A stretch of DNA of 64,000 nt from Panopea generosa (Eukaryota; Mollusca; Bivalvia; Adapedonta; Hiatellidae). This document shows positions 5,464-61,000 of the stretch, piece by piece. A program made the translations under genes and the position numbers. The notes beneath the pieces were generated by a model, which worked only from the letters and a program-made list of their open reading frames with translations, had not been told where the DNA came from and searched no databases. Location: positions 4,643,374 through 4,707,373 of the forward strand of contig CM055901.1 in NCBI GenBank assembly GCA_029582155.1, given 5' to 3'. Position 1 is the stretch's first letter; every line of letters starts with the position of its first letter.

Positions 5464-6640
5464 CTCGGGAAATTTGGTTCCTTCACCGCAGTAGACCAGG
5501 GCTCAGGAATGACACATATTGTGATTTAACAACTATCAGTTACAAAGTTTCGGCTATTTACAATTGGCATATACACGAGGATACTTTGGGAGTAAAACCA
5601 TATGAATAACAATAAACTCTCAAAGCCATTAAATACATGAAAACAATAATGATGAAATATTTCATTTTGAAAAAAAAAAACAGATTGAAATTTACGTTAA
5701 AACTTTGTGCAGAGCGATAACGCTTGAAATGTTTTACTCTTATAACATCAACATTTCAGTGTGAAAACAAGTTTTAAACAAACCAAAACGGCAACCTTTC
5801 TAGGAAATCTATATGATTAAAAGGAGCCTGATATAGAAGCAAAATGTCTGCGAAACTTATATTCACAAAAATGTTAAGAAATGTACATCGCCAAATTCCG
5901 TTATTAAGAAATAAACCAGTCTTAGCAGTCAAATAAGTAGTCATATCTGCCGTTGTGTTTACATCGACCTGTCATCGGTGCACATAGTGAATACTTCGTG
6001 ACATGATGTGCAACACATTAACATTAAACTAAATACGCAGACACCACTGTTTGCATGGATGTTTATCTTGTATATTATCTACAAAATTATCATTACACTC
6101 TTCACTTGCGACAAACTGTATTCGGCATATACACATATTAGTGACCTTCTTCTAAATATAAGATATCATGATATACTCTTGTACTACATGCGAATGACGT
6201 CAAACGACTGTATATGCAAATTATAAAAAAAAAAGTTAGTTTTAAAGCAGCATAATCAGAATTGGGAGAACTTGTTCATGAATGACAAGCATTTTCCCTT
6301 ATTCGCATGGCTTTAGATGCATACATACCGGCCGATACCTCTGAATGGGAATAAGTCGTGTTTTAAATCTATATTTACTAATCATTTGTTATATGCAAAA
6401 CAGCTATTTCGCTTACTGAAATTATCATAAAATTTCCGATCCAATCATATATACTCAGCCGATTCCGTAATCCTTTTGTATTAGAACGGTTGCTAGGTAT
6501 GTGCAAAGATATTTATGCAAATATGGACAAATATTTATTTACCATTTTGTTGGATCATATTTCTTTGGATATGAGAAGCCGTTTATGGAGCACAGTAAGA
6601 AAAATATAGTGTTGATAGGGAAATTAACAAAACAATTAAT
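5464..6640. other. No feature seen
   Basis: AT-rich sequence without a supported gene, RNA or array. It begins with the 3' flanking duplicate of the MITE. Confidence 0.45.
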
Positions 6641-6644
6641 TCTT

Positions 6645-6716
6645 GTCACGGGATTCGAACCCAGAACGCTCGAATCATAATACATATAAAATATAACTAC
6701 TGCGCTGTGTAGGAAT
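6645..6716 (-). repeat. tRNA-like SINE head
   Basis: The minus strand carries a perfect pol III B-box, GGTTCGAATCC, preceded by an A-box-like stretch about 45 nt upstream. The rest does not fold as a cloverleaf tRNA and no anticodon arm is convincing, so I call it a tRNA-derived SINE fragment rather than a tRNA gene. Confidence 0.5.
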
Positions 6717-7261
6717 ATAACAAATTCAGTCGTCTAAATCTAAGTTTAAACTTAACCGCATATCCGCGTTTAATCGATGATGCCCGGACATTTCAGATCG
6801 TTTACGGATATAACTGATCCTTAATATTAAAAGAATAACCGTTTTTTACTGAACTAAAAGAATGGGATTGTCTGGTTAATATGCCGCTTTGGTTTACATA
6901 TTAAAATATTCAGGTGGGTTTTATTGCTGTGAAAGAACATAAGAGAAAACAGTGTGTTTTGTGATTTGTAAGTAGAATATTAATAAGTAAGCTTTTTGGT
7001 TACGTTTATTGCGTATTTTGAATTTACATAACTATTTCAACAATGAAAGGGTACTCCCATTGTAAGTTATTAAACTGTGTTGTATGTAATTGCTCAAAGG
7101 TCATAAGCAACCAATTTTAATCATCATTTTAGCTTTAAAAAGCAATGTATACCATTAAAACATTGCCGATATATACTTTCAAGTATAAAACTACCCGTTT
7201 CGAACGCCTGAAAGGAAAAACTAGTACAGTGCTTTTTCAAAAGATTAATAGGACGATTTGG

Positions 7262-23640: not shown

Positions 23641-23924
23641 ACCCACCATCTTCTCTATAATCTTGTATTCTCCAATTCGAAAAGGTGAAATCTCACTCTC
23701 GTGCGTGGCGAGATCTGTGCGTGACTTGAGCTCAGGGGAATCGCGTCACACCATAACAAACCGCAGTGGTGATTCTGACAGTAGTTAAAGTTACATAAAA
23801 TAGCCATGAAAAGAACGAAAACAATACAAGATATGAAAGAAAATAAAAAAAAAAGTTTATCATGATAAAATAATTTTTTTATCGTTTTGTGCGTTTTGTG
23901 CGTATCTGTATACTTATTGTTATG

Positions 23925-26900
23925 CTGACTACTCTGCCGACTGTACCCTCAACACCCACCATGCCGACTACAGTACCCGCTATACCATATACACTCGTCG
24001 CGCTGACTACACTGCCAACTGTACCCTCAACACCCACCATGCCGACTACACCACCCGCTATACCATATACTCGCGTCGCGCTGACTACACTGCCGACTGT
24101 ACACTCAACACCCACCGTGCCAACTACACTACCCCCTATACAATGTACACTTGTCGTGCTGACTACATTGCCGACTGTACCCTCAACACCAACCATGCCG
24201 ACTACACTACCCGCTATACTACATACACTCGTCATGCTGACTACACTGCCGACTGTACCCTCAACACCAACCGTGCTGGCTATACTACCCGCTATACCAT
24301 ATACACTCGTCGTGCTGACTACATTGCCGACTGTACCCTCAACACCAACCATGCTGACTACACTACCCGCTATACTACATACACTCGTCATGCTGACTAC
24401 ACTGCCGACTGTACCCTCAACACTCACCGTGCCGACTACACTACCCGCTATACCATATACACTCGTCGTGCTGACTACACTGCTGACTGTACCCTCAACA
24501 CCCACCGTTCCAACTACAGTACCCCCTATACCATATACACTCGTCGTGCTGACTACTCTGCCGACTGTACCCTCAACACCCACCATGCCGACTACACTAC
24601 CCGCTGTACCATATATACTTGTCGTGCTGACTACACTGCCGACTGTACCCTCAACACCCACAGCGCCGACTACACTACCCGCTATACCATATACACTCGT
24701 CATGCTGACTACACTGCTGACTGTACCCTGAACACCCATCATGCCAACTACACTACCCCCTATACCATATACACTCGTCGTGCTGACTACTCTGCCGACT
24801 GTACCCTCAACACCCACCGTGCCGACTACTCTACCTGTTATACCATATACACTCGTCGTGCTGACTACACTGCCGACTGTACCCTCAACACCCACAGCGC
24901 CGACAACACTACCCTCTATACCATATACACTCGTCGTGCTGACTACTCTGCCGACTGTACCCTCAACACCCACCGTGCCGACTAATCTACCCGTCATACC
25001 ATATACACTCGTCATGCTGACTACACTGTCGACTGTACCCTCAACACCCACCATGCCGACTACACTACCCGCTATACCATATACACTCGATGTGCTGACT
25101 ACTCTGCCGACTGTACCCTCAACACCCACCGTGCCGACTACACTACCCGCTATACCATATACACTTGTCGTGCTGACTACACTGCCGACTGTACCCTCAA
25201 CACCCACCGTGTCGACTACAGTACCCCCTATACCATATACACTCGTTGTGCTGACTACACTGCCGACTGTACCCTCAACACCCACCATGCCGACTACACT
25301 ACCCGCTATACCATATACCCTCGTCATGCTACTACACTGCCGACTGTACCCTCAACGCCAACCGTGCCGACTACACTACCCGCTATACAATATACACTTG
25401 TCATGCTGACTACACTGCCGACTGTACCCTCAACACCCACCATGCCAACTACACTACCCCCTATACCATATACACTCGTCATGCTGACTACACTGCCGAC
25501 TGTACCCTCAACACCCACCATGCCGACTACACTACCCCCTATACAATATACACTCGTCGTGCTGACTACACTGCCGACTGTACCCTCAACACCAACCGTG
25601 CTGGCTATACTACCCGCTATACCATATACACTCCTCGTGCTGACTACACTGCCGACTGTACCCTCAACACCAACCGTGCTGGCTATACTACCCGCTATAC
25701 CATATACAATCCTCATGCTGACTACACTGCCGACTGTACCCTCAACACCCACCGTGCCGACTACAGTACCCCCTATACCATACAGACTCGTCATGATGAC
25801 TACACTGCCGACTGTACCCTCAACACCCACCGTGGCGACTACACTACCTGCTATATCATATACACTCGTCGTGCTGACTACATTGCCGACTGTACCCTCA
25901 ACACCCACCGTTCCAACTACAGTACCCCTTATACTACATACACTCGTCATGCTGACTACACTGCCGACTGTACCCTCAACACCCACCATGCCGACTACAC
26001 TACCCTCTATACCATATACACTCGTCGTGCTGACTACACTGCCGACTGTACCCTAAACACCTACCGTGCCAACTACACTATCCGCTATACAATATACACT
26101 CGTCATGCTGACTACACTGCCGACTGTACCCTCAACACCCACCGTGCCGACTACACTACCTGCTATATCATATACACTCGTCGTGCTGACTACATTGCCG
26201 ACTGTACCCTCAACACCCACCGTTCCAACTACAGTACCCCCTATACTACATACACTCGCCATGCTGACTACACTGCCGACTGTACCCTCAACACCCACCA
26301 TGCCGACTACACTACCCTCTATACCATATACACTTGTCGTGCTGACTACACTGCCGACTGTACCCTTAACACCCACCGTGCTAGCTACACTATCCCCTAT
26401 ACCATATACACTCGTCGTGCTGACTATAATGCCGACTGTACCCTCAACACCCACCGTGCCGACTACACTAACCGCTATACCATATACACTTGTCGTGCTG
26501 ACTACACTGCCGACTGTACCCTCAACACCCACCGTGTCGACTACAGTACCCCCTATACCATATACACTCGTTGTGCTGACTACACTGCCGACTGTACCCT
26601 CAACACCCACCATGCCGACTACACTACCCGCTATACCATATACCCTCGTCATGCTACTACACTGCCGACTGTACCCTCAACGCCAACCGTGCCGACTACA
26701 CTACCCGCTATACAATATACACTTGTCATGCTGACTACACTGCCGACTGTACCCTCAACACCCACCATGCCAACTACACTACCCCCTATACCATATACAC
26801 TCGTCATGCTGACTACACTGCCGACTGTACCCTCAACACCCACCATGCCGACTACACTACCCCCTATACAATATACACTCGTCGTGCTGACTACACTGCC

Positions 26901-29900
26901 GACTGTACCCTCAACACCAACCGTGCTGGCTATACTACCCGCTATACCATATACACTCCTCGTGCTGACTACACTGCCGACTGTACCCTCAACACCAACC
27001 GTGCTGGCTATACTACCCGCTATACCATATACAATCCTCATGCTTACTACACTGCCGACTGTACCCTCAACACCCACTGTGCCGACTACAGTACCCCCTA
27101 TACCATACAGACTCGTCATGATGACTACACTGCCGACTGTACCCTCAACACCCACCGTGCCGACTACACTACCTGCTATATCATATACACTCGTCGTGCT
27201 GACTACATTGCCGACTGTACCCTCAACACCCACCGTTCCAACTACAGTACCCCTTATACTACATACACTCGTCATGCTGACTACACTGCCGACTGTACCC
27301 TCAACACCCACCATGCCGACTACACTACCCTCTATACCATATACACTCGTCGTGCTGACTACACTGCCGACTGTACCCTAAACACCCACCGTGCCAACTA
27401 CACTATCCGCTATACAATATACACTCGTCATGCTGACTACACTGCCGACTATACCCTCAACACCCACCATGCCGACTACACTACCCCCTATACCATATAC
27501 ACTATTCATGCTGACTACACTGCCGACTGTACCCTCAACACCCACCATGCCGACTACACTACCCGCTATACTTCATACACTGGTCGTGCTGACTACACTG
27601 CCGACTGTACCCTCAACACCCACCATGCCGACTACAGTACCCCATATACAATATACACTCGTCGTGCTGACTACACTGCCGACTGTACCCTCAACACCAA
27701 CCGTGCTGGCTATACTACCCGCTATACCATATACACTCCTCGTGCTGACTAAACTGCCGACTGTACCCTCAACACCAACCGTGCTGGCTATACTACCCGC
27801 TATACCATATACAATCCTCGTGTTGACTACACTGCCGACTGTACCCTCAACACCAACCGTGCTGGCTATACTACCCGCTATACCATATACACTCCTCGTG
27901 CTGACTACACTGCCGACTGTACCCTCAACACCAACCGTTCTGGCTATACTACCCGCTATACCATATACAATCCTCATGCTGACTACACTGCCGACTGTAC
28001 CCTCAACACCCACTGTGCCGACTACAGTACCCCCTATACCATACAGACTCGTCATGATGACTACACTGCCGACTGTACCCTCAACACCCACCGTGCCGAC
28101 TACACTACCTGCTATATCATATACACTCGTCGTGCTGACTACATTGCCGACTGTACCCTCAACACCCACCGTTCCAACTACAGTACCCCTTATACTACAT
28201 ACACTCGTCATGCTGACTACACTGCCGACTGTACCCTCAACACCCACCATGCCGACTACACTACCCTCTATACCATATACACTCGTCGTGCTGACTACAC
28301 TGCCGACTGTACCCTAAACACCCACCGTGCCAACTACACTATCCGCTATACAATATACACTCGTCATGCTGACTACACTGCCGACTGTACCCTCAACACC
28401 CACCATGCCGACTACACTACCCCCTATACCATATACACTATTCATGCTGACTACACTGCCGACTGTACCCTCAACACCCACCATGCCGACTACACTACCC
28501 GCTATACTTCATACACTGGTCGTGCTGACTACACTGCCGACTGTACCCTCAACACCCACCATGCCGACTACAGTACCCCCTATACAATATACACTCGTCG
28601 TGCTGACTACACTGCCGACTGTACCCTCAACACCAACCGTGCTGGCTATACTACCCGCTATACCATATACACTCCTCGTGCTGACTAAACTGCCGACTGT
28701 ACCCTCAACACCAACCGTGCTGGCTATACTACCCGCTATACCATATACAATCCTCGTGTTGACTACACTGCCGACTGCACCCTCAACACTCACCGTGCCG
28801 ACTACAGTACCGCCTATACCATATAGACTCGTCGTGCTGACTACACTGCCGACTGTACCCTCAACACCCACCGTGCCGACTACACTACCTGCTATATCAT
28901 ATACACTCGTCGTGCTGACTACATTGCCGACTGTACCCTCAACACCCACCGTTCCAACTACAGTACCCCCTATACTATATACACTCGCCATGCTGACTAC
29001 ACTGCCGACTGTACCCTCAACACCCACCATGCCGACTACACTACCCTCTATACCATATACACTTGTCGTGCTGACTACACTGCCGACTGTACCCTTAACA
29101 CCCACCGTGCTAGCTACACTATCCCCTATACCATATACACTCGTCGTGCTGACTATAATGCCGACTGTACCCTCAACACCCACCGTGCCGACTACACTAC
29201 CCGCTATACCATATACACTCGTCGTGCTGACTACACTGCCGACTGTACCCTCAACACCCACCATGCCGACTACAGTACCCCCTATACCATATACACTCGT
29301 CGTGCTGACTACTCTGCCGACTGTACCCTCAACACCCATCGTGCGACTACACTACCCGCTATACCATATACACTCGTCGTGCTGACTACATTGATGACTG
29401 TGCCCTCAACACCCACCATGCCGACTACACTACCCGCTGTACCATATACACGCATCGGGCTGACTACACTGCCGACTGTACCCTCAACACCCACCGTGCC
29501 GACTACACTACCCGCTGTACCATATACACTCGTCGTGCTGACTACACTGCCGACTGTACCCTCAACACCCACCGTGCCGACTACAGTACCCCCTATACCA
29601 TATACACTCTTCGTGCTGATTACACTGCTGACTGTACCCTCAACACCCACCGTGCCGACTACATTACCCCCTATACCATATACACTCGTCGTGCTGATTA
29701 CACTGCCGACTGTACCCTCAACACCCACCGTGCCGACTACACTACCCGCTATACCATATACACTCGTCATGCTGACTATATTGCCGACTGTACCCTCAAC
29801 ACCCACTGTGCCGACTACACTACCCGCTATACCATATACACTCGTCATGCTGACTATATTGCCGACTGTACCCTCAACACCCACCATGCCAACTACACTA

Positions 29901-31095
29901 CCCGCTATACTACATACACTCGTCATGCTACACTGCCAGCTGTACCATCAACACCCATCGTGCCGATTACTCCACCCTCTATTCCATATACACTTGTTGC
30001 GCTGACTACACTGCCGACTGTACCCTCAACACCCACCTTCTCGACTACACTTCCCGCTATACTATTTACACTTGTCGCGCTGACTACACTGCCGACTGTA
30101 CCCTCAACACCCACCGTGCTGGCTACACTACCAGCTATACTATTTACACTCGTGCTGACTACACTGCCGACTGTACCCTCAACTCCGGGCGGCACGGCTA
30201 CACGACTACTATACCCACTATACTATATACACTTGTCGCCCTGACTACACTGCCGACTGTACCCGCAACACCCATCGTGCCGACTACTCTACCCGCTATA
30301 CCATATACACTCGTCGTGCTGACTACACTGCCGACTGTACCCTCAACACCCACCGTGCCGACTACACTACCCGCTATGCCATATACACTTGTCGCGCTGA
30401 CTACACTGCCGACTGTACCCTCAACACCCACTCTGCGGACTACTCTACCCGCTTTACCATATACACTCGTCATGCTGACTACACTGCCGACTGTACCCTC
30501 AACACCCACCGTGCCGACTACACTACCCGCTATACCATATACACTCGTCGCGCTAACTACACTGCCAGCTGTTCCATTAACACCCACAGCGCCGACTACA
30601 CTACCCTCTATACCATATAGACTCGTCGTGTTGACTACACTGCCAGCTGTACCATTAACACCCACACTGCCGACTACTCTACCCGCTATACAATATACAT
30701 CGTCGTGCTGACTACACTGCCGACTGTACCCTCAACACCCACCGTGCCGACTACTGTACCCGCTATACCATATACACTCGTCGTGCTGTCTACACTGCCG
30801 ACTATACCCTCAACAGCCACCTTGCCGACTACACTATCCTCTATACCAAATACACACGTTGCGATGACTACACTGCTAGCTGGCTGTACCATTAACACCC
30901 ACAGTGCCGACTACACTACCCTCTATACCATATAGATTCGTCAATCTGACTACACTGCTGACTATCTTCAACACCCACCGTGCCGACTACACTACCCGCT
31001 ATACCATATACACTTGTCGCGGTAACTACACTGCTGGCTGTACCCTGATCACCGACCGTTCCGACTACACTACCGGCTATATCCTCTACATCCAA
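23925..31095 (+). repeat. 78-bp satellite-like array, about 92 copies, with higher-order repeats
   Basis: Unit: gccgactacactacccgcta, taccatatacactcgtcgtg, ctgactacactgccgactgt, accctcaacacccaccgt (78 bp). It is richer in G+C than its surroundings. Long-range duplications are visible. A rare unit with a 1-base deletion (catgctactacactgcc) recurs at 25321 and 26646, exactly 1325 bp apart (17 units minus one). A block starting at 27391 recurs at 28327, 936 bp or 12 units later. Edge copies are more diverged. Frames are open on both strands (for example PTTLPAIPYTLVVLTTLPTV in + and VGVEGTVGSVVSTTSVYGI in -), as expected from a unit lacking stops. Confidence 0.97.
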
Positions 31096-43411: not shown

Positions 43412-43985
43412 ATTTCCACCCTGTAATACCGGTATATCATCTTCTGCACCCTCATATCACACCACTTTCGTTCCACCCTGTAATACTGGTATTTCATCTT
43501 CTGCACTCTCATATCACACTACTTTTGTTCCACCCTGTAAAACTGGTATATCATCTTCTGCACCCTCATATCACACTACTTTTGTTCCACCCTGTAATAC
43601 TGGTATATCATCTTCTGCACCCTCATATCACACTACTTTTGTTCCACCCTGTAATACCAGTATATCATCTTCTACACCCTCATATCACACTACTTTTGTT
43701 CCACCCTGTTATACCAGTATACCATCTTCTACACCCTCATATCACACTACTTTTGTTCCACCCTGTTATACCAGTATACCATCTTCTACACCCTCATATC
43801 ACACTACTTTTGTTCCACCCTGTAATACCAGTATATCATCTTCTACACCCTCATATCACACTACTTTTGTTCCACCCTGTTATACCAGTATATCATCTTC
43901 TACACCCTCATATCACACTACTTTTGTTCCACCCTGTTATACCAGTATACCATCTTCTACACCCTAATATGATACTACTTTTGTA
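43412..43985. repeat. 57-bp tandem repeat, 10 copies
   Basis: Units start every 57 bp from 43415 (ccaccctgtaataccagtat, atcatcttctacaccctcat, atcacactacttttgtt). Copies are highly similar, suggesting recent expansion. The + frame is open across it (PVIPVYHLLHPHITLLLFH) with no gene context. Confidence 0.97.
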
Positions 43986-49000: not shown

Positions 49001-52000
49001 CCTCCATTTTTTAGCATTGAAAAATAGTTTTTGATTATGAAGGCATTCTTGCCACACAAAGATATTTACTCTGATATACCAAACTACTTAAATACACATA
49101 CATGTATACATGATATTTAACTCGCATAATTAAAACAATGTCTTTACTAATAAATGTTTATATACACATAGCTGTAAGTGTAATTATAACATTATTAATT
49201 TATTATTATTATTATTATTATTATAGAATGATACACATTCAAGCAGATGACATAATATGCATACATATGTGTACATACACATAGCTGTAAGTGTAATTAT
49301 ATTATAATAATATATTGATAAGACATTCAAGCAGATTCCATATGCATACACATATGTATATACACATAGCTGTAAGTGAAATTATATTATAATAATATAT
49401 TGATAAGACATTCAAGCAGATTCCATATGCATACACATATGTATATACACATAGCTGTAAGTAAAATTATATTATAATAACATATTGATAGACATTCAAG
49501 CAGATTCCATATGCATACACATATGTATATACACATAGCTGTAAGTGAAATTATATTATAATAATATATTGATAAGACATTCAAGCAGATTCCATATGCA
49601 TACACATATGTATATACACATAGCTGTAGGTATCAATACATATTCAAACAGATGACATATGCATACACATATGTATATATAAATAGCTGTAGGTATTAAT
49701 GCATATTCAAGCAGATGACATATGCATACACATGTGTATATACACATAGCTGTAAGTGATTATATTAAAATAATATATTGATAGACATTCAAGCAGATTC
49801 CATATGCATACACATATGTATATACACATAGCTGTAGGTATCAATACATATTCAAACAGATGACATATGCATACACATATGTATAGACAAATAGCTGTAG
49901 GTATTAATGCATATTCAAGCAGATGACATATGCATACACATGTGTATATACACATAGCTGTAGGTATTAATACATATTCAAGCAATTGACAAATGCATAC
50001 ACATGTTTATATTACACATAGCTGTAGTTATCAATACATATTCAAGCAGATGACATATGCATACACATGTGTATATACACATAACTGTAGGTATCAATAC
50101 ATTATCAGGCAGATGACATATGCATACACATGTGTATAAACACATAACTGTAGGTATTAATACATATTCAAGCAGATGACATATGCATACACATGTGTAT
50201 ATACACATAGCAGTAGGTATAAATACATATTCAAGCAGATGACATATGCATACACATGTGTATAAACACATAACTGTAGGTATTAATACATATTCAAGCA
50301 GATGACATATGCATACACATGTGTATATACACATAACTGTAGGTATTAATATATATTCAAGCAGATGACATTTGCATACACATGTGTATAAACACATAAC
50401 TGTAGGTATTAATACATATTAAAGCAGATGACATATGTATACACATGTGTATATACACATAACTGTAGGTATTAATACATATTCAAGCAGATGACATATG
50501 CATACAAATGTATATAAACACATAACTGTAGGTATTAATACATATTCAAGCAGATGACATATGTATACACATGTGTATATACACATAACTGTAGTTATCA
50601 ATACATATTCAAGCAGATGACATATGCATACACATGTGTATAAACACATAACTGTAGGTATTAATACATATTCAAGCAGATGACTTATGCATACACATGT
50701 GTATATACACATAGCAGTAGATATAAATACATATTCAAGCAGATGACATATGCATACACATGTGTATTTACCATAGCTGTAGGTATCAATACATATTCAA
50801 GCAGATGACATATGCATACACATGTGTATATACACATAGCAGTAGGTATAAATACATATTGAAGCAGATGACATATGCATACACATGTGTAATAACCATA
50901 GCTGTAGCTATCAATACATATTCAAGCAGATGACATATCAACAAACATGTGTATATACAAATAACTGTAGGTATTAATACATATTCAAGCAGATGACATA
51001 TGCATACACATGTGTATATACACATAATTGTAGGTATCAATACATATTCAAGCAGATGACATATGCATACACATGTGTAATAACCATAGCTGTAGCTATC
51101 AATACATATTCAAGCAGATGACATATCAACAAACATGTGTATATACAAATAACTGTAGGTATTAATACATATTAAAGCAGATGACATATGCATACACATG
51201 TGTATATACACATAATTGTAGGTATCAATACATATTCAAGCAGATGACATATGCATACACATGTGTATAAACACATAACTGTAGGTATTAATACATATTA
51301 AAGCAGATGACATATGCATACACATGTGTATATACACATAACTGTAGGTATCAATATATATGTATATGCATATGTCATCTGCTTGAATATGTATTGATAC
51401 CTACAGTTATGTGTATATACATATGTATATGCATATGTCATCTGCTTGAATATGTATTGATACCTACAGTTATGTGTATATACATATGTATATGCATATG
51501 TCATCTGCTTGAATATGTATTGATACCTACAGTAATGTGTATATACATATGTATATGCATATGTCATCTGCTTGAATATGTATTGATACCTACAGTTATG
51601 TGTATATACATATGTATATGCATATGTCATCTACTAGAATATGTATTGATACCTACAGTTATGTGTATATACATATGTATATGCATATGTCATCTGCTTG
51701 AATATGTATTGATACCTACAGCAATTTGTATATACACATGTGTATGCATATGTCATCTGCTTGAATATGTATTGATACCTACAGTTATGTGTATATACAT
51801 ATGTGTTTGCATATGTCATCTGCTTGAATATGTATTGATACCTACAGTTATGTGTATATACACATGTATATGCATATGTCATCTGCTTGAATATGTATTG
51901 ATACCTACAGTTATGTGTATATACACATGTGTATGCATATGTTATCTGCTTTAATATGTTTTGATACATACAGCTATGTGTATATAGATATGTGTATGCA

Positions 52001-55000
52001 TATGTCATCTGTTGAATATGTATTGATACCTACAGTTATATGTATATACACATGTGTATGCATATGTTATCTGCTTTTATATGTATTGATACCTACAGCT
52101 ATGTGTATATAGATATGTGTATGCATATGTCATCTGCTGGAATATGTATTTATACCTACAGTTATGTGTATATACACATGTGTATGCATATGTCATCTGC
52201 TTGAATATGTATTGATACCTACAGTTATGTGTATATACACATGTGTATGCATATGTTATCTGCTTTAATATGTATTGATACCTACAGCTATGTGTATATA
52301 GATATGTGTATGCATATGTCATCTGCTTGAATATGTATTCATACCTACAGTTATGTGTATATACACATGTGTATGCATATGTCATCTGCTTGAATATGTA
52401 TTGATACCTACAATTATGTGTATGCATATGTCATCTGCTTGAATATGTATTGATACCTACAGTTATGTGTATATACACATGTGTATGCATATGTCATCTG
52501 CTTTAATATGTATTAATACCTACAGTTATGTGTTTATACACATGTGTATGCATATGTCATCTGCTTGAATATGTATTAATACCTACAGTTATTTTTATAT
52601 ACACATGTCTGTTGATATGTCATCTGCTTGAATATGTATTGATAGCTACAGCTATGGTTATTACACATGTGTATGCATATGTCATCTGCTTCAATATGTA
52701 TTTATACCTACTGCTATGTGTATATACACATGTGTATGCATATGTCATCTGCTTGAATATGTATTGATACCTACAGCTATGGTAAATACACATGTGTATG
52801 CATATGTCATCTGCTTGAATATGTATTTATATCTACTGCTATGTGTATATACACATGTGTATGCATAAGTCATCTGCTTGAATATGTATTAATACCTACA
52901 GTTATGTGTTTATACATGTGTATGCATATGTCATCTGCTTGAATATGTATTGATAACTACAGTTATGTGTATATACACATGTGTATGCATATGTCATCTG
53001 CTTGAATATGTATTAATACCTACAGTTATGTGTTTATATACATTTGTATGCATATGTCATCTGCTTGAATATGTATTAATACCTACAGTTATGTGTATAT
53101 ACACATGTGTATACATATGTCATCTGCTTTAATATGTATTAATACCTACAAGCAGATGACATATGCATACACATGTGTATATACACATAACTGTAGGTAT
53201 TAATACATATTCAAGCAGACTACACATGTGTATATATACACATTGCTGTTGGCAAAATTAAATACACATATTGATAAATATTCAAGAAGACTATATACAC
53301 AGACACATGTGTAAATACAAATAGCAGTACCAGTAGGTGCAATTATATACATGTATTGATTAATATTCAAGCAGACTTGATTTGCATACACATACACATA
53401 CACACAGAGCTGTAGGTATAATTATGTATTAATACAAAATAAAGCAGACTACCAGCATATATGTATACACAAGTGATATTTAGTCTTTTGTTATAGCTAT
53501 AAAATATTTTCATACGACAACCAATGCCTCATTGTTTACATTGAATTTTGTGCACCAATGTATGGCTTACATAATATAAAATATATGCTTGGCTTAAAAC
53601 CAGTAAATGGTTCTCTGGCTTACATCTAGAGATAATGGCCTTGGCATCTGAGGAGCTAAAACTTTCTCTGGCAGAGGAAGACTTTTTTATATTTATAAAT
53701 TGATATTGGCTTCCTAGTCAAAAGTCCTATCAGTTCTTAAACATCAGAGAAGTCTTAGATTTATATCCAAGAAATGACACAAATATGATAACTACACATA
53801 TGTCAACTGTACAAAGATGCCACCATTCTTTGGTTGGAAGCATGACTCACTGCCCAGTTCTGAAGTTTGGTTGATAAAGAGTCTACCAAAAAAATCATTT
53901 TAATTTCAAGTATGGAACGAAAGTTTGTGAGCAGTAACAATTTTTCAATTTTAAGTATTAATGATCGTTTCCCAATGGAAATGAAAAGCAACCTAATAAT
54001 TCTATAAATTATAAAGAGTCACCTATAATATTCATTTTCAATACTTGTATACTATTTTGAACATGAATCTATTTATAGTAACAGACACCTTGGCATTGAC
54101 CAAGTGACTTGAAAAGCAATCCTAAGCTATATTTCATAATAAGGATTTTATCTACAAATTATTTATCAAGAACAAAAAAGTAAATGAGATATTATATTTT
54201 TAGTTAAAGCAACCTTGACCTTAACCTAAATAATCAAAAAGTTCCAAGCTTTCATTTATTTCAAAGATTCTATCCACAGAGAATTCATCTATATATATTA
54301 TTGGGAACACAATATATTAACATAGAAATCATTTCTGGACATACGGAAAAATAAGGGTAACACTATATGACCACCTTCTCCTTTGAATGTTGATATGATG
54401 GCCAACCATGTTGACACCACATCCAACATGGGGATTTACTAGTACAGATTTTGAGTTCCTTCATGTTCTAACTTCTAGCATTTAGTAATAAGTGATAACT
54501 ATATCGTTGAAACAAGCATAATGCAGAACATGTGGGTAACTACTGACCAGGGCTTCTAATATCAGTCCAGGATTTTTATTGCCGTAAGAATCGAATTAGT
54601 GAATTCATGTTATATAATGGTCAGTAGTACTGACCATTATATAACCTGTATTCACTTATTGCCAAAAACTCATTTGGAGCAGCTGTAAATTGTAGTTTGG
54701 GTTGAGTTTTTATAGGGAAATCAGTAATTTTGTAAATATCATAATAAATGTTAATTATAAACTCTTTCCAATCACATGGTCTAATAAGGAATTATATAAC
54801 ACGGTTCTGGTGTTATTTTCATAATCCTTGCATAATAGGTTTTGTAAAATAATTTTATCTTCTTGATTTTGTCAATATACAATAATTATATTTATTCACC
54901 AATCAGGGCAAAGCTATGAAGATGATGAAATGCTAAAACAAACTGAATACAAAAAAACACACTTATTTTACACTATGTTTAGAAACTTTCTATCAATATA

Positions 55001-58000
55001 AACAGTGCCTGTAAACAAGGAATTTAATTCAGTTATCAAAACTACAAACTAGTGTCCGTCAATGATCGACAATCAGGGTCATGAGTGTGCAAATTATGAA
55101 TTTCACATTCAGCGTGCATTCTGCAGTTTTATTGTGAATGTTGACTTATTTACTTTAGCTTGATTGCAATGTAAGCTTATATTAACCGCCTTCAAGTCAG
55201 CTTCCTGGGTAGAACCAGTACTGAGTGTTCTTTAAAGAGAGCCATCGGGTTGAGTGGAGGATCAAACCGCAACCTCTGGCATGAGTGGCCAACACTCTAT
55301 CCACTACACTACCACCCCGCATGTTGACTGAATTACATAATTTTCAATGTAATTGTATATTCATACACAGTAGTTTACGCATTGATATAACATTGAACAT
55401 TTAAAATTAAAAGTATAATTCAACAAATAGAAGTATATTTCTGTGATAAATAACTTTGTGTTGTCTAACTATTTCAATACCTTGCTGCATCGAGAGTCCT
55501 GCATGATATTTGATTTAAGATTTCTCAAACTCACATGAAACGGAAGTTAATGATTTTGACCTAACCTTAAATTATAACAGCTGTCTCCATAAACATAATG
55601 ATTCTGACCTATCCTTATATCATACCAACTGTCCCTATAAACTTTTGTTGTAATTTATAATAAATTCAAATACAAGACGTGTTCAAACATACCACACAGG
55701 AATTTGTGGACAGTTTGATACCATTGGTTGGTAGTACCCACATCAACTCCACACATTTTGTTACGTATATCTTACACCATCAAGTTATTTATTATAGTTA
55801 CCTGTAGTTTCTGAAATATTGTATCGAGAATGGTATCAGCATGAAAATTATGGTTCAAATTTTAGAATTAGCAAATACAGTAAAACCTGTGTAAGTGGTC
55901 ACCTCTATTAAGCAGCCACATGTCTTAAGCAGCCATGTTTCATATTTTCCATGTCTATGCTTTCAGAGTAAATAAACCTGTATTATGCAACAACCTGCCT
56001 TAAAAGGCCATCTTTGCTCTTTCCCTTGACTGGCTGCTTAAGACAGGTTTGGCTGTATACTGTAAAATCCTTAATAAAGACCCAATCCTTCGACCCAAGC
56101 TGAATTTTTTTTTAATTATTATTACTAAGGTAGTTTCAACTTGTATCTGTTGTTTGTATTTAGGTCCGTTAAAGGAGGTTTATCAGGGGAAAATGCTATA
56201 ACTGTTTAAAAAAAAAAATTATTTCTAAAATGGATAAAAGCATCTCATAATCATTAACAAATAAAATCTGGTATGTCAAATCCATAAAAAATATTTAAAT
56301 TGGAGTGGTAAACTTGAAATGAAATCCCCATTCTAAAAATAGACAGCACTTACATACTGGTTGACAACCTTTACATTGTCATTCAAACACATCTAAGATG
56401 AATGGGTTTAACACATTTTCAACACATTTCAGGCATATATGGCATTTACAGTTTTGTTGGTGGAGGAAGAACTCAGAATGAATCTGAGTAGAACCACCAT
56501 CCTTCTGCAAGTAACTGGCAAACTTTCTCAAATAAAGTTTTTGGAGTGAGTGGGAATCAAACCTACAACCTAAGCAGTGAGAGGTCAGTGATCTTGAGAT
56601 GGCGCTTAGACCGGTCAGCCATGGAGAAGATGAAACAATTTTTACGTGTAAACCCGTATAACAGATCAAAATGAAATCGTTGACTCATTTAATGTCTCAC
56701 AAAATATGATGCAATTTTAAGCAGGAAATCTATTTTAATCTAACCTAGGCACGCAGTCTAGGAAATCTCTTTTCAATATATTATTTTTGCATGTTTAAAC
56801 AGATATCATTTTGGCAATATGGGGGCATGTTTAAACAGATATCATTTTTGCAATACCGGGGCATGTTTAAATAGATATCATTTTGGCAATACTGGGGCAT
56901 GTTTAAATAGATATAATTTTGGCAATATGGGGGCATGTTTAAATAGATATCATTTGGCAATAGGGGGGCATGTTTAAATAGATATCATTTGGCAATAGGG
57001 GGGCATGTTTAAATAGATATCATTTGGCAATAGGGGGGCATGTTTAAATAGATATCATTTGGCAATAGGGGGGCATGTTTAAATATATATCATTTTGGCA
57101 ATACTGGGGCATGTTTAAATAGATATCATTTTGGCAATATGGGGGCATGTTTAAACAGATATCATTTTGGCAATACCGGGGCATGTTTAAACAGATATCA
57201 TTTTGGCAATAGGGGGGCATGTTTAAATAGATATCATTTTGGCAATACAGGGTCAGTGAATATATATAGGCATGATATATTGGAAAAGATGTTTTTAGCA
57301 AATTTTAAAAATTTGAAAATTCTGATATAATTTCTTTTGGGGTCCTCTGTGGCCAAGTGGTCCGATACATCTTAACATCATTTACCTCTCATCGCTAAAT
57401 CGTAGGTTTGAGTCCACATGGCCCATATACTAATTATTATACGTAACTTAATACTGCACCATATCCATGTATTGGTTTATTGCGAAAAGATAAGTGGGAT
57501 TTAATGCTATTTTCAACATTTTACAGGTTAAAAATTATATTATAAATCAAGTTTTATTGATGGTGGAAGGGAAGACATTCATGATTAATATGGGTAGTAC
57601 CACGGTCCTTCACAAGTCACTGTCAAACTTTCTCACATGAAGTTTTTAGACAGAACAGAATGTGCACACAAACTATTATGTACAGCAAAGGGTGACAACT
57701 CTTAGCAAAAGGGTGTGTGTGTGGGGGTAACAGTGTATCAGGAATCAATATTTGTATTTGGTTAATTAGTTTAAATGTTTATAAAAATGTTTTATCGCCA
57801 TATCCTATATATAAATCAAGTTAACATAAAGCACATTTTCATATATACCTGGCCAGTCATGTCCCTTTGTAGGTGCCTCGACAGCGATGTCAAAACCCTT
57901 TGTCTCCAGTGTGAGCCATTTGTTGATGGGAAATTCTATCTCTGTCTTATCCACCATGTTCAACATCACAACCTGATATAATATATATGGCATCATCATC

Positions 58001-61000
58001 GCAACACAGTTCAAACTGATTTCTGTCATATATAATTTTGCACAATAAGGAATTAAACCGATTAAACAAATATCTCTTATTATTATCATTCAATCAGTAC
58101 CAAATATATTATCTAGTCTCTCACCTTTTCTACCTGCCATGGCCTACCCGAGTTGTCGTGCTCCAACCGTATTTTGCGTAACTGACCCAGAATCTCGGGA
58201 TCCAAGAACACCTGATATAAAAAGCATAACAAGAGTAGTGAGTACATCTGACATAACAAAAGAAGTGTGTACATCTGACATAACAAGAGTAGTGAGAATA
58301 TCTGACATAACAAAAGTAGTGAGTACATCTGACATAACAAGAGCAGTGAGTACATCTGACATAACAAGAGTAGTGAGTACATCTGACATAAAAAGAGCAG
58401 TGAGTACATCTGACATAAAAAGAGCAGTGAGTACATCTGACATAACAAGAGTAGTGAGTACATCTGACATAACAAGAGTAGTGAGTACATCTGACATAAC
58501 AAGAGTAGTGAGTACATCTGACATAAAAAGAGCAGTCAGTACATCTGACATAAAAAGAGCAGTGAGTACATCTGACATAACAAGAGTAGTGAGTACATCT
58601 GACATAAAAAGAGCAGTGAGTACATCTGACATCACAAGAGCAGTGAGTACATCTGACATAACAAGAGTAGTGAGTACATCTGACATAACAAGAGTAGTAA
58701 GTACAACTGACATAACAAGAGTAGTGAGTACATCTGACATAACAAGAGTAGTGAGTACATCTGACATAACAAGAGTAGTGAGTACATCTGACATAAAAAG
58801 AGTAGTGAATACATCTGACATAACAAGAGAAGTGAGTACATCTGACATAACAAGAGTAGTGGGTACATTTGACATAAAAAGAACAGTGAGTACATCTGAC
58901 ATAACAAGAGTAGTGAGTAAATCTGACATAACAAGAGTAGTGAGTACATCTGACATAACAAGAGTAGTGAGTACATCTGACATAAAAAGGGTAGTGAGTA
59001 CATCTGACATAACAAGAGTAGTGAGTACATCTGACATGACAGAGTAGTGAGTACATCTGACATAACAAGAGGAGTGAGTACATTTGACATAAAAAGAGAA
59101 GTGAGTACATCTGACATAACAAGAGTAGTGAGTACATCTGACATAAAAAAAACAGTGAGTACATCTGACATAAAAAAGAGCAGTGAGTACATCTGACATA
59201 ACCAGAGAAGTGAGTACATCTGACATAAAAAGAGCAGTGAGTACATCTGACATAACAAAAGCAGTGAGTACATTTGACATAACAAGAGCAGTGAGTACAT
59301 CTGACATAACAAGAGTAGTGAGTACATCTGACATAACAAGAGTAGTAAGTACAACTGACATAACAAGAGTAGTGAGTACATCTGGCATAACAAGAGTAGT
59401 AAGTACATCTGACATAACAAGAGTAGTGAGTACATCTGACATAACAAGAGTAGTGAGTACATCTGACATAACAAGAGTAGTGAGTACATCTGACATAACA
59501 ATAACAATGAGTACATCTGACATAACAGGGACAATGAAAACATCTGACATAACAATAACAATGGGTACATCTGACATAACAAAAACAATGAGTACATCTG
59601 ACATAACAAAAACAATGAGTACATCTGACATAGCAAGAACAATGAGTACATCTGACATAACAGGATCAATCAGTACATTTGACATAACAAGAAAATTAGT
59701 ACATCTGACATAACAGGAACAATCAGTACATCTGACATAGCAAGAATAATGCCTACATCTGACATAACATTAACAATGAGTACATCTGACATAACAATAA
59801 CAATCAGTACATCTGACATTACAATAACAATCAGTACATCTGACATAACAGGATCAATGAGTACATCTGATATAACAGGATCAATGAGTACATCTGACAT
59901 AACAGGATCAATGAGTACCTCTGACATAACAATAACAATGAGTACATCTGACATTACAATAACAATGAGTACATCTGACATAACAATTACAATCAGTACA
60001 CCTGACATAACAGGATCAATGAGTACATCTGATATAACAGGATCAATGAGTACATCTGACATAACAATAACAATGGTTACATCTGACATAACAATAACAA
60101 TGGGTACATCTGACATAACAATAACAATGAGTACATCTAACATAACAAGAACAATGAGTACATCTGATATAACAAGAACAATGAGTACATCTGACATAAC
60201 AATAACAATGAGTACATCTGATATAACAAGAACAATGAGTACATCTGACAACGATAATGACACCAGGGTCATGGCATTAGCTCTATGAGCTAATTAAAAG
60301 AAATTATTGGAAAAACAAATCTATAAAGTTGAACTTCTTACCTACTTTGTGAGAGACATGATATGGATGGATGTATACCAGTCTGTGTATCACATGCCAG
60401 ATGCCATCAGACCAGTGGCCGTTGACAAACTGAACATACCACAATATAATTAAAAATCACATTTACCCCCTTGAAGAATATACAATATCTATGTCTGTAG
60501 TTTACTGTGACAAAGCCAAATATGTTGCAATTGTTACAGCCCTTGTATTTAATACCATCTACATATTTACCAAAAACAGAGGAAATTGATTTAATAATTA
60601 TAAGTCAAGCAGCTTACATCAAATTCATCAGTTTTGCCAGAGTAGAAGTAGCCAATATCTGTCTGCCCAAGTGGGAGAGGTCCGGTATTGTCTGCATCTC
60701 CATACACCGTCAAGGTCACATTAGAATCTGTTCCACTATCTGCTTCAGAACTAGTCGTAACAAAAACTTTCCAGTCTCCATCTGAAATGTTATACAGTAC
60801 TTGATATTAAGCTAGTAAATGGGGTTAAACATTATATTGAATACAGTTTAATTGGTGAAGACCTCAGAATGAATATGTGTAGAACCACCATCCCTACACA
60901 AGTAACTGGCAAACTTTCATACATGCATTTTTTTGTACAGAGCTAAGCTCAAACCTATGACCTCAGTAGAGTAACATTGAGCCCTAGCCACAGAGATCTC

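Follow-up and report, generated by a model that had tools for sequence, protein, structure and literature searches.

A minisatellite of 27-bp units in 75.1 copies (58225..60250, minus strand; TRF, 90% matches; sense unit ATGTACTCACTACTCTTGTTATGTCAG) lies against the acceptor of exon 58125-58211 in a LOXHD1-like gene of Panopea generosa, and its units score as credible acceptors themselves. The existence of this 75-copy array beside the acceptor had been claimed in a sequence-only reading of the same DNA and is borne out. We hold with good confidence that it belongs with the border minisatellites known from amphioxus as 'mirages', that it expanded from the junction that it adjoins, and that its units are mostly silent decoys.

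The window analysed is a stretch of 64,000 nucleotides (C8:4643374-4707373) from a genome assembly of 1.47 Gb in 39 contigs, and its minus strand holds part of a PLAT-repeat gene for which LOXHD1-like is a label taken from the large number of PLAT domains. Iterated profile searches for PLAT across the window plus 140 kb of flanking DNA gave 38 half-domain matches (20 + 18), and 37 of these received exon models with splice sites, a first-half exon near 139386 being omitted as its acceptor was unclear. Six more exons were chosen among 18 candidates by a PLAT W-L or W-I start together with PLAT-like residues where these would be expected, to give 43. Around the array, exons 60618..60781 (164 nt, 3' end ...GATGAATTTGAT|gtaagc), 58125..58211 (87 nt, starting GTGTTCT and followed by the donor GTGAGA) and 57849..57972, all on the minus strand and the first also identified by Pfam PLAT, together make one PLAT domain (Pfam PF01477, E 1.9e-15) that resembles 5-lipoxygenase and polycystin-1. 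Within this joined domain the junction of the array-bearing intron, whose 5' splice site GTAAGC is at 60612..60617 (minus strand), is in phase 0, and so the phase previously read for the end of the upstream exon holds in the exon models and in the domain. Inspection of the sequence puts an intron at the equivalent place in nine PLAT repeats of the gene; both borders were modelled in eight of them, with intron lengths from 413 to 2406 nt, and the array-bearing intron is the longest.

A wrap-around alignment of the array has 76 rows, of which two are partial units at its ends. In this one assembly, 41 distinct sequences are found among the 72 units that are free of gaps. The units carry a branch-point-like CTCAC/T (57 places), a pyrimidine tract and CAG. 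Position 27 is occupied in 75 units, of which 71 end in AG, and the following unit starts with A in 72 cases, with T in two and with G in one, which makes CAG|ATG the rule. The earlier claim that every unit is acceptor-like is too strong, since the exact string CTCTTGTTATGTCAGATG occurs only 23 times in the array (TCAG occurs 71 times) among the many variants. Two blocks are evident: a 5' block of 27 gap-free units (59490..60250, minus strand), more varied, of the CATTGTTCTTG type and 92% identical to the consensus ATGTACTCATTGTTCTTGTTATGTCAG, which contains all four ATATCAG units; and a 3' block of 45 next to the exon (58225..59489, minus strand), more uniform at 95%, of the CACTACTCTTG type, where the twelve units that have T at position 18 are all located. 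The AG within the units does not stand out in column entropies as a target of selection.

Open frames run through the array for 541 codons on the minus strand (58144-59769) and 332 codons on the plus strand (58049-59047), a trap for gene finders. A coding array was considered and set aside, as the long frames come from a stop-poor 27-bp unit and no coding evidence accompanies them. A dispersed repeat or transposon as the source of the unit was likewise rejected: elsewhere in the genome the best identity is 72%, and the three distant regions matched are all other arrays. Within the limits of this search, which skips very common words and so returns counts that are lower bounds, the unit appears to be private to the array locus.

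The true acceptor of exon 58125-58211 reads ...TACTCACTACTCTTGTTATGctttttatatcag|GTGTTCTTG, as the sequence-only reading gave it, and the array as delimited by TRF ends 13 nt before the exon. Those 13 nt, CTTTTTATATCAG, are themselves unit-like: 12 of the 13 agree with a common variant of positions 15-27 in the unit, the highest count among the 43 modelled acceptors. They close a terminal 36-nt element (58212..58247, minus strand) made up of 23 nt of unit followed by CTTTTTATATCAG, which may represent one unit whose pyrimidine tract was lengthened by an internal duplication of 9 nt. When a junction 20-mer (13 intron and 7 exon bases) is compared to the array, that of 58211 has a top match of 17/20 and reaches at least 15/20 at 66 places, whereas none of the remaining 42 modelled acceptors reaches 15/20 there. 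Judged on these matches, common descent of the array with the 58211 junction in particular is supported, and so is the proposal that the array grew out of the intron-exon border, although which of the two gave rise to the other, border or array, is something that we infer. The first seven exon bases, GTGTTCT, equal the unit head ATGTACT at five of seven positions, a level reached by one of the 43 exons and by 2.2% of 6298 AG sites, and are no more than suggestive of an exon share in the unit. Within the array, the ATATCAG variant of the true acceptor is confined to four units, all in the 5' block, as would be expected if the edges of the array had escaped homogenisation.

Acceptor strength was scored with a matrix built from the 37 acceptors of the gene, each left out in turn, which is small and not equal to a trained splice predictor. 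On this scale the real acceptors average 7.3 bits and the 73 decoy AGs in the array 7.9 bits, while 4143 intronic AGs outside arrays average -1.2 bits and only 1.7% of them attain the decoy mean. The true site at 58211 scores 12.9 bits (rank 2 of 37), against about 7.7 bits for the nearest units. With a matrix from 43 sites it scores 13.4 bits (rank 3 of 43); 66 of the 73 decoys then reach the median acceptor of the gene and three equal or exceed the true site, for which reason silence of the units is not obvious from the scores. That the units might score far below the real site, a test put forward in the sequence-only reading, proves half true: they are on average 5 bits under the neighbouring true site but level with the median acceptor. 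The array units are therefore credible acceptors, and the true site is an unusually strong one.

The likely course of events is that a short piece taken from the intron's 3' end, and perhaps also the opening bases of the exon, was duplicated in tandem, and that ordinary minisatellite turnover (slippage, unequal exchange, conversion) would then have carried it to about 75 copies. Most units amount to a complete minimal 3' splice site, in which the A of the branch-point-like CTCAC/T precedes the CAG end by 18 nt. The spliceosome would most likely still take the last site, 58211, because it has the longer pyrimidine tract, is among the strongest acceptors of the gene by score and adjoins an exon with its own donor, and the upstream units would be mostly silent decoys.

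The array is one of six in the LOXHD1-like gene that touch splice junctions, three at acceptors and three at donors. In extended window numbering its siblings are acceptor arrays at 124187 (unit 43 bp) and 128070 (unit 38 bp), and donor arrays at 151167 (unit 22 bp), 154272 (unit 61 bp) and 110836 (spacing about 102 bp, with some 31 exon bases per unit); exon bases are present inside the units at 110836, 128070 and 151167. With robust arrays defined as TRF arrays of at least three copies and at least 100 bp, and with several distance cut-offs tried, four of 21 robust arrays lie at most 15 nt from a junction of the 37 exons against 0.30 expected at random (p 0.001), and four of 45 when all arrays are taken (0.71 expected, p 0.005). 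For 43 exons the figures are five of 22 against 0.54 (p about 0.0007) and, for all arrays, a weaker five of 46 against 1.07 (p 0.006). The 37-exon test is the cleaner one since the exon at 128070 was sought only after its array drew attention, and the array at 110836 is not counted at 15 nt because it overlaps its own exon by 32 nt. Free of TRF, a copy of the junction 30-mer (at least 22/30) is found in the adjacent 3 kb at seven of 86 junctions, against one of 86 in a control of 20 distant segments per junction; six of the seven are the six border arrays and the seventh (116935) has a single copy. Two siblings fare poorly in the 20-mer junction test: 154272 comes second of 43, and 124187, at 14/20, shares its score with two others.

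A rule that the authentic site outscores its decoys does not generalise across the six border arrays. When every AG or GT in an array is counted, decoys at or above the real site number 3/73 (58211), 11/29 (124187), 4/7 (128070), 17/84 (151167), 6/222 (154272) and 0/85 (110836). At the last of these (about 5661-6835 of locus L015, that is 110835-109661 extended) all ten recognised decoys read GTTAG, as against GTAAG at the true donor, and judging from these motifs the decoys of this donor array appear uniformly weakened. In the array at 151167 (L019, about 6776-7173, that is 151173-150776 extended) at least the first 14 units of 22 bp approximate CAG|GTAGGT and end in TTNCAG, and so a unit could act as both donor and acceptor, which makes the array a candidate for a nest of very short introns or for recursive splicing.

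Tandem arrays are dense in this region, with 71 clusters of period at least 7 in 204 kb, and of 60 array consensus units eight (the 58225 array included) score at least 7.7 bits as acceptors on the sense strand and two on the other. Acceptor-like sense units also occur in arrays at 43414-43984 and 140774-141452 (extended), at 10.3 and 12.6 bits, with no modelled exon adjoining. Other arrays are large: one of 78 bp in 92 copies (7 kb) at 23923-31081 in the window; one of 171 bp in 113 copies (19 kb) from 6.4 to 25.8 kb below the window start; and, at 49208-53150, a 63-bp array whose second half has the opposite orientation and is about 89-90% identical across 1.7 kb, making it a large inverted tandem array.

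This density, and the eight consensus units that pass as acceptors, are what would let an intronic minisatellite with a pyrimidine-rich CAG unit adjoin an acceptor by chance, yet the similarity is specific to the 58211 junction in the 20-mer test, arrays exceed their random expectation at junctions, and sibling arrays hold exon bases in their units, so that such a coincidence is already disfavoured and seems to us very improbable. A more serious contender, if still an unlikely one, is that the near units are used at a measurable low rate, with PLAT domains gaining 12 + 9n mostly hydrophobic residues, while use of the farther units would lead to premature stops and decay and the array would be a mild cost that depends on its length. 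The acceptor scores of the units, equal to those of ordinary acceptors, the many branch-point-like motifs and the eleven decoys that are open and in frame all speak for such noise, and so does the report, in the accessible part of PMC10809524, that many unannotated intronic sites in human can be used. Against it stand the gap between the true site and the nearest units, and the published mirages, which the available sections of PMC3087553 and PMC3902484 report without aberrant mRNA.

The same eleven decoys underlie an idea of the sequence-only reading, that the array generates isoforms of variable length, with selection preserving the in-frame decoys and copy number tuning the protein. The arithmetic behind it is correct: the CAG of the nearest unit is 36 nt from the exon, 27 is a multiple of three, and what had been estimated as about eleven in-frame nearest decoys are exactly eleven, giving open exon extensions from 36 to 306 nt upstream (58212..58517, minus strand) before a TGA in the twelfth unit (58536..58538, minus strand) closes the frame for decoys farther upstream. 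The idea itself finds no support, and was rejected, as 62 of the 73 decoys are out of frame or stopped and the unit lengths of four of the five sibling arrays (43, 38, 22 and 61 bp; the fifth has the spacing of about 102 bp) are not divisible by three. Use of the nearest decoy would add MYSLLLLCFLYQ to the protein at a point where the alignment with the 5-lipoxygenase PLAT domain is free of gaps, and such in-frame insertions would probably harm the fold. We give this reading hardly any credence, and the expansion of a junction into mostly silent decoys is retained as the account of the array.

Border arrays are seen also at genes that code for myosin heads. Among the best 30 of 81 matches in the genome, four loci carry one: donor arrays at L035 (unit 41 bp, about 31 exon bases) and L053, and acceptor arrays at L040 (unit 44 bp) and L052 (unit 60 bp), with exon bases inside the units at all four. 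An adjacent copy of the junction 30-mer (at least 22/30) occurs at five of 55 callable junctions (of 60), as compared to none of 1495 control comparisons (three at 21/30 or above); four of the five are the border arrays, and the fifth (L030) has a single copy. At three dynein loci no border array was found, a number too few to count as a third gene family. A fragment of dynein heavy chain (about 220-313 of the DHC_N2 profile, mostly with an in-frame stop) is present on many contigs with near-equal scores, as if it had turned into a dispersed repeat. The LOXHD1-like and myosin results suggest, from small samples, that junctions in two unrelated gene families often carry border arrays. A wider proposition, which we advance tentatively and would rate somewhat short of even, is that minisatellite birth is drawn to borders, that a splice site has been multiplied in tandem at around 1 in 14 junctions (a figure resting on 6/86 LOXHD1 junctions and 4/55 myosin junctions, with dynein at 0 in three loci), and that decoy arrays may be present in thousands of genes. 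If so, the spliceosome must in such genes choose the copy touching the exon from among decoys, and decoy arrays would be standing raw material for intron gain and for change in exon length.

The amphioxus genome, at about 0.5 Gb, is smaller than the 1.47 Gb found here. Its mirage minisatellites are described in Adh3, the globins BflGb6/9, TnC and PGBD5 (PMC3087553, PMC3902484, in the accessible text of each). As far as these texts go, Adh3 data and globin RT-PCR suggested splicing without interference, with many globin mirage units retaining AG/GT signals as possible cryptic sites (PMC3087553), and the Adh and TnC mirages are said not to yield aberrant mRNAs (PMC3902484). On the same partial descriptions, mirages and the 58225 array with its siblings share tandem repeats at an intron-exon border whose units hold a splice signal, an occurrence at both 5' and 3' borders, and unit lengths within 10 to about 160 bp. 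They differ in that the 58225 array has about 75 copies against 2 to 7 in amphioxus (Adh3 not included), and in that most of its units hold a branch-point-to-AG module. Repeats with splice sites are also indicated by the title of a 1995 report on a minisatellite of human 6-16 (IFI6) that holds several splice donor sites, which places these sites in a transcript, whereas the 58225 array has putative acceptors. Arrays of dual-specific AG|GT sites in UBC and other repeat genes (PMC10809524, available part) resemble the sibling array at 151167, with CAG|GTAGGT in most units, more than the 58225 array, which has CAG|ATG in place of AG|GT and is intronic and not coding. Minisatellites at exon-intron boundaries are known too among the internal tandem repeats of human duplicated genes, which the accessible part of PMC2812944 ties to novel introns and alternative transcripts; the 58225 array shows no such change. 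What places the 58225 array with the mirages is that it abuts its border, being unlike the unit at only one of the last 13 bases before the exon, and that its units are copies of that border's splice signal. A literature search, whose scope excluded most subscription papers and both founding papers, found no report of mirages outside amphioxus. We regard the array as a border-derived acceptor minisatellite, probably silent, which adds a long new example to the mirages.

How the spliceosome chooses among near-identical 3' splice sites is usually studied by artificial duplications. Here some 75 copies in a row, with sibling donor and acceptor arrays in one gene, offer a natural test of cut-site choice. 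If border arrays are common across the genome, as two gene families suggest, they would make it possible to test directly whether introns are gained by tandem duplication and why minisatellites begin at exon edges, and would serve as a warning that gene predictors may misplace exon ends in such genomes.
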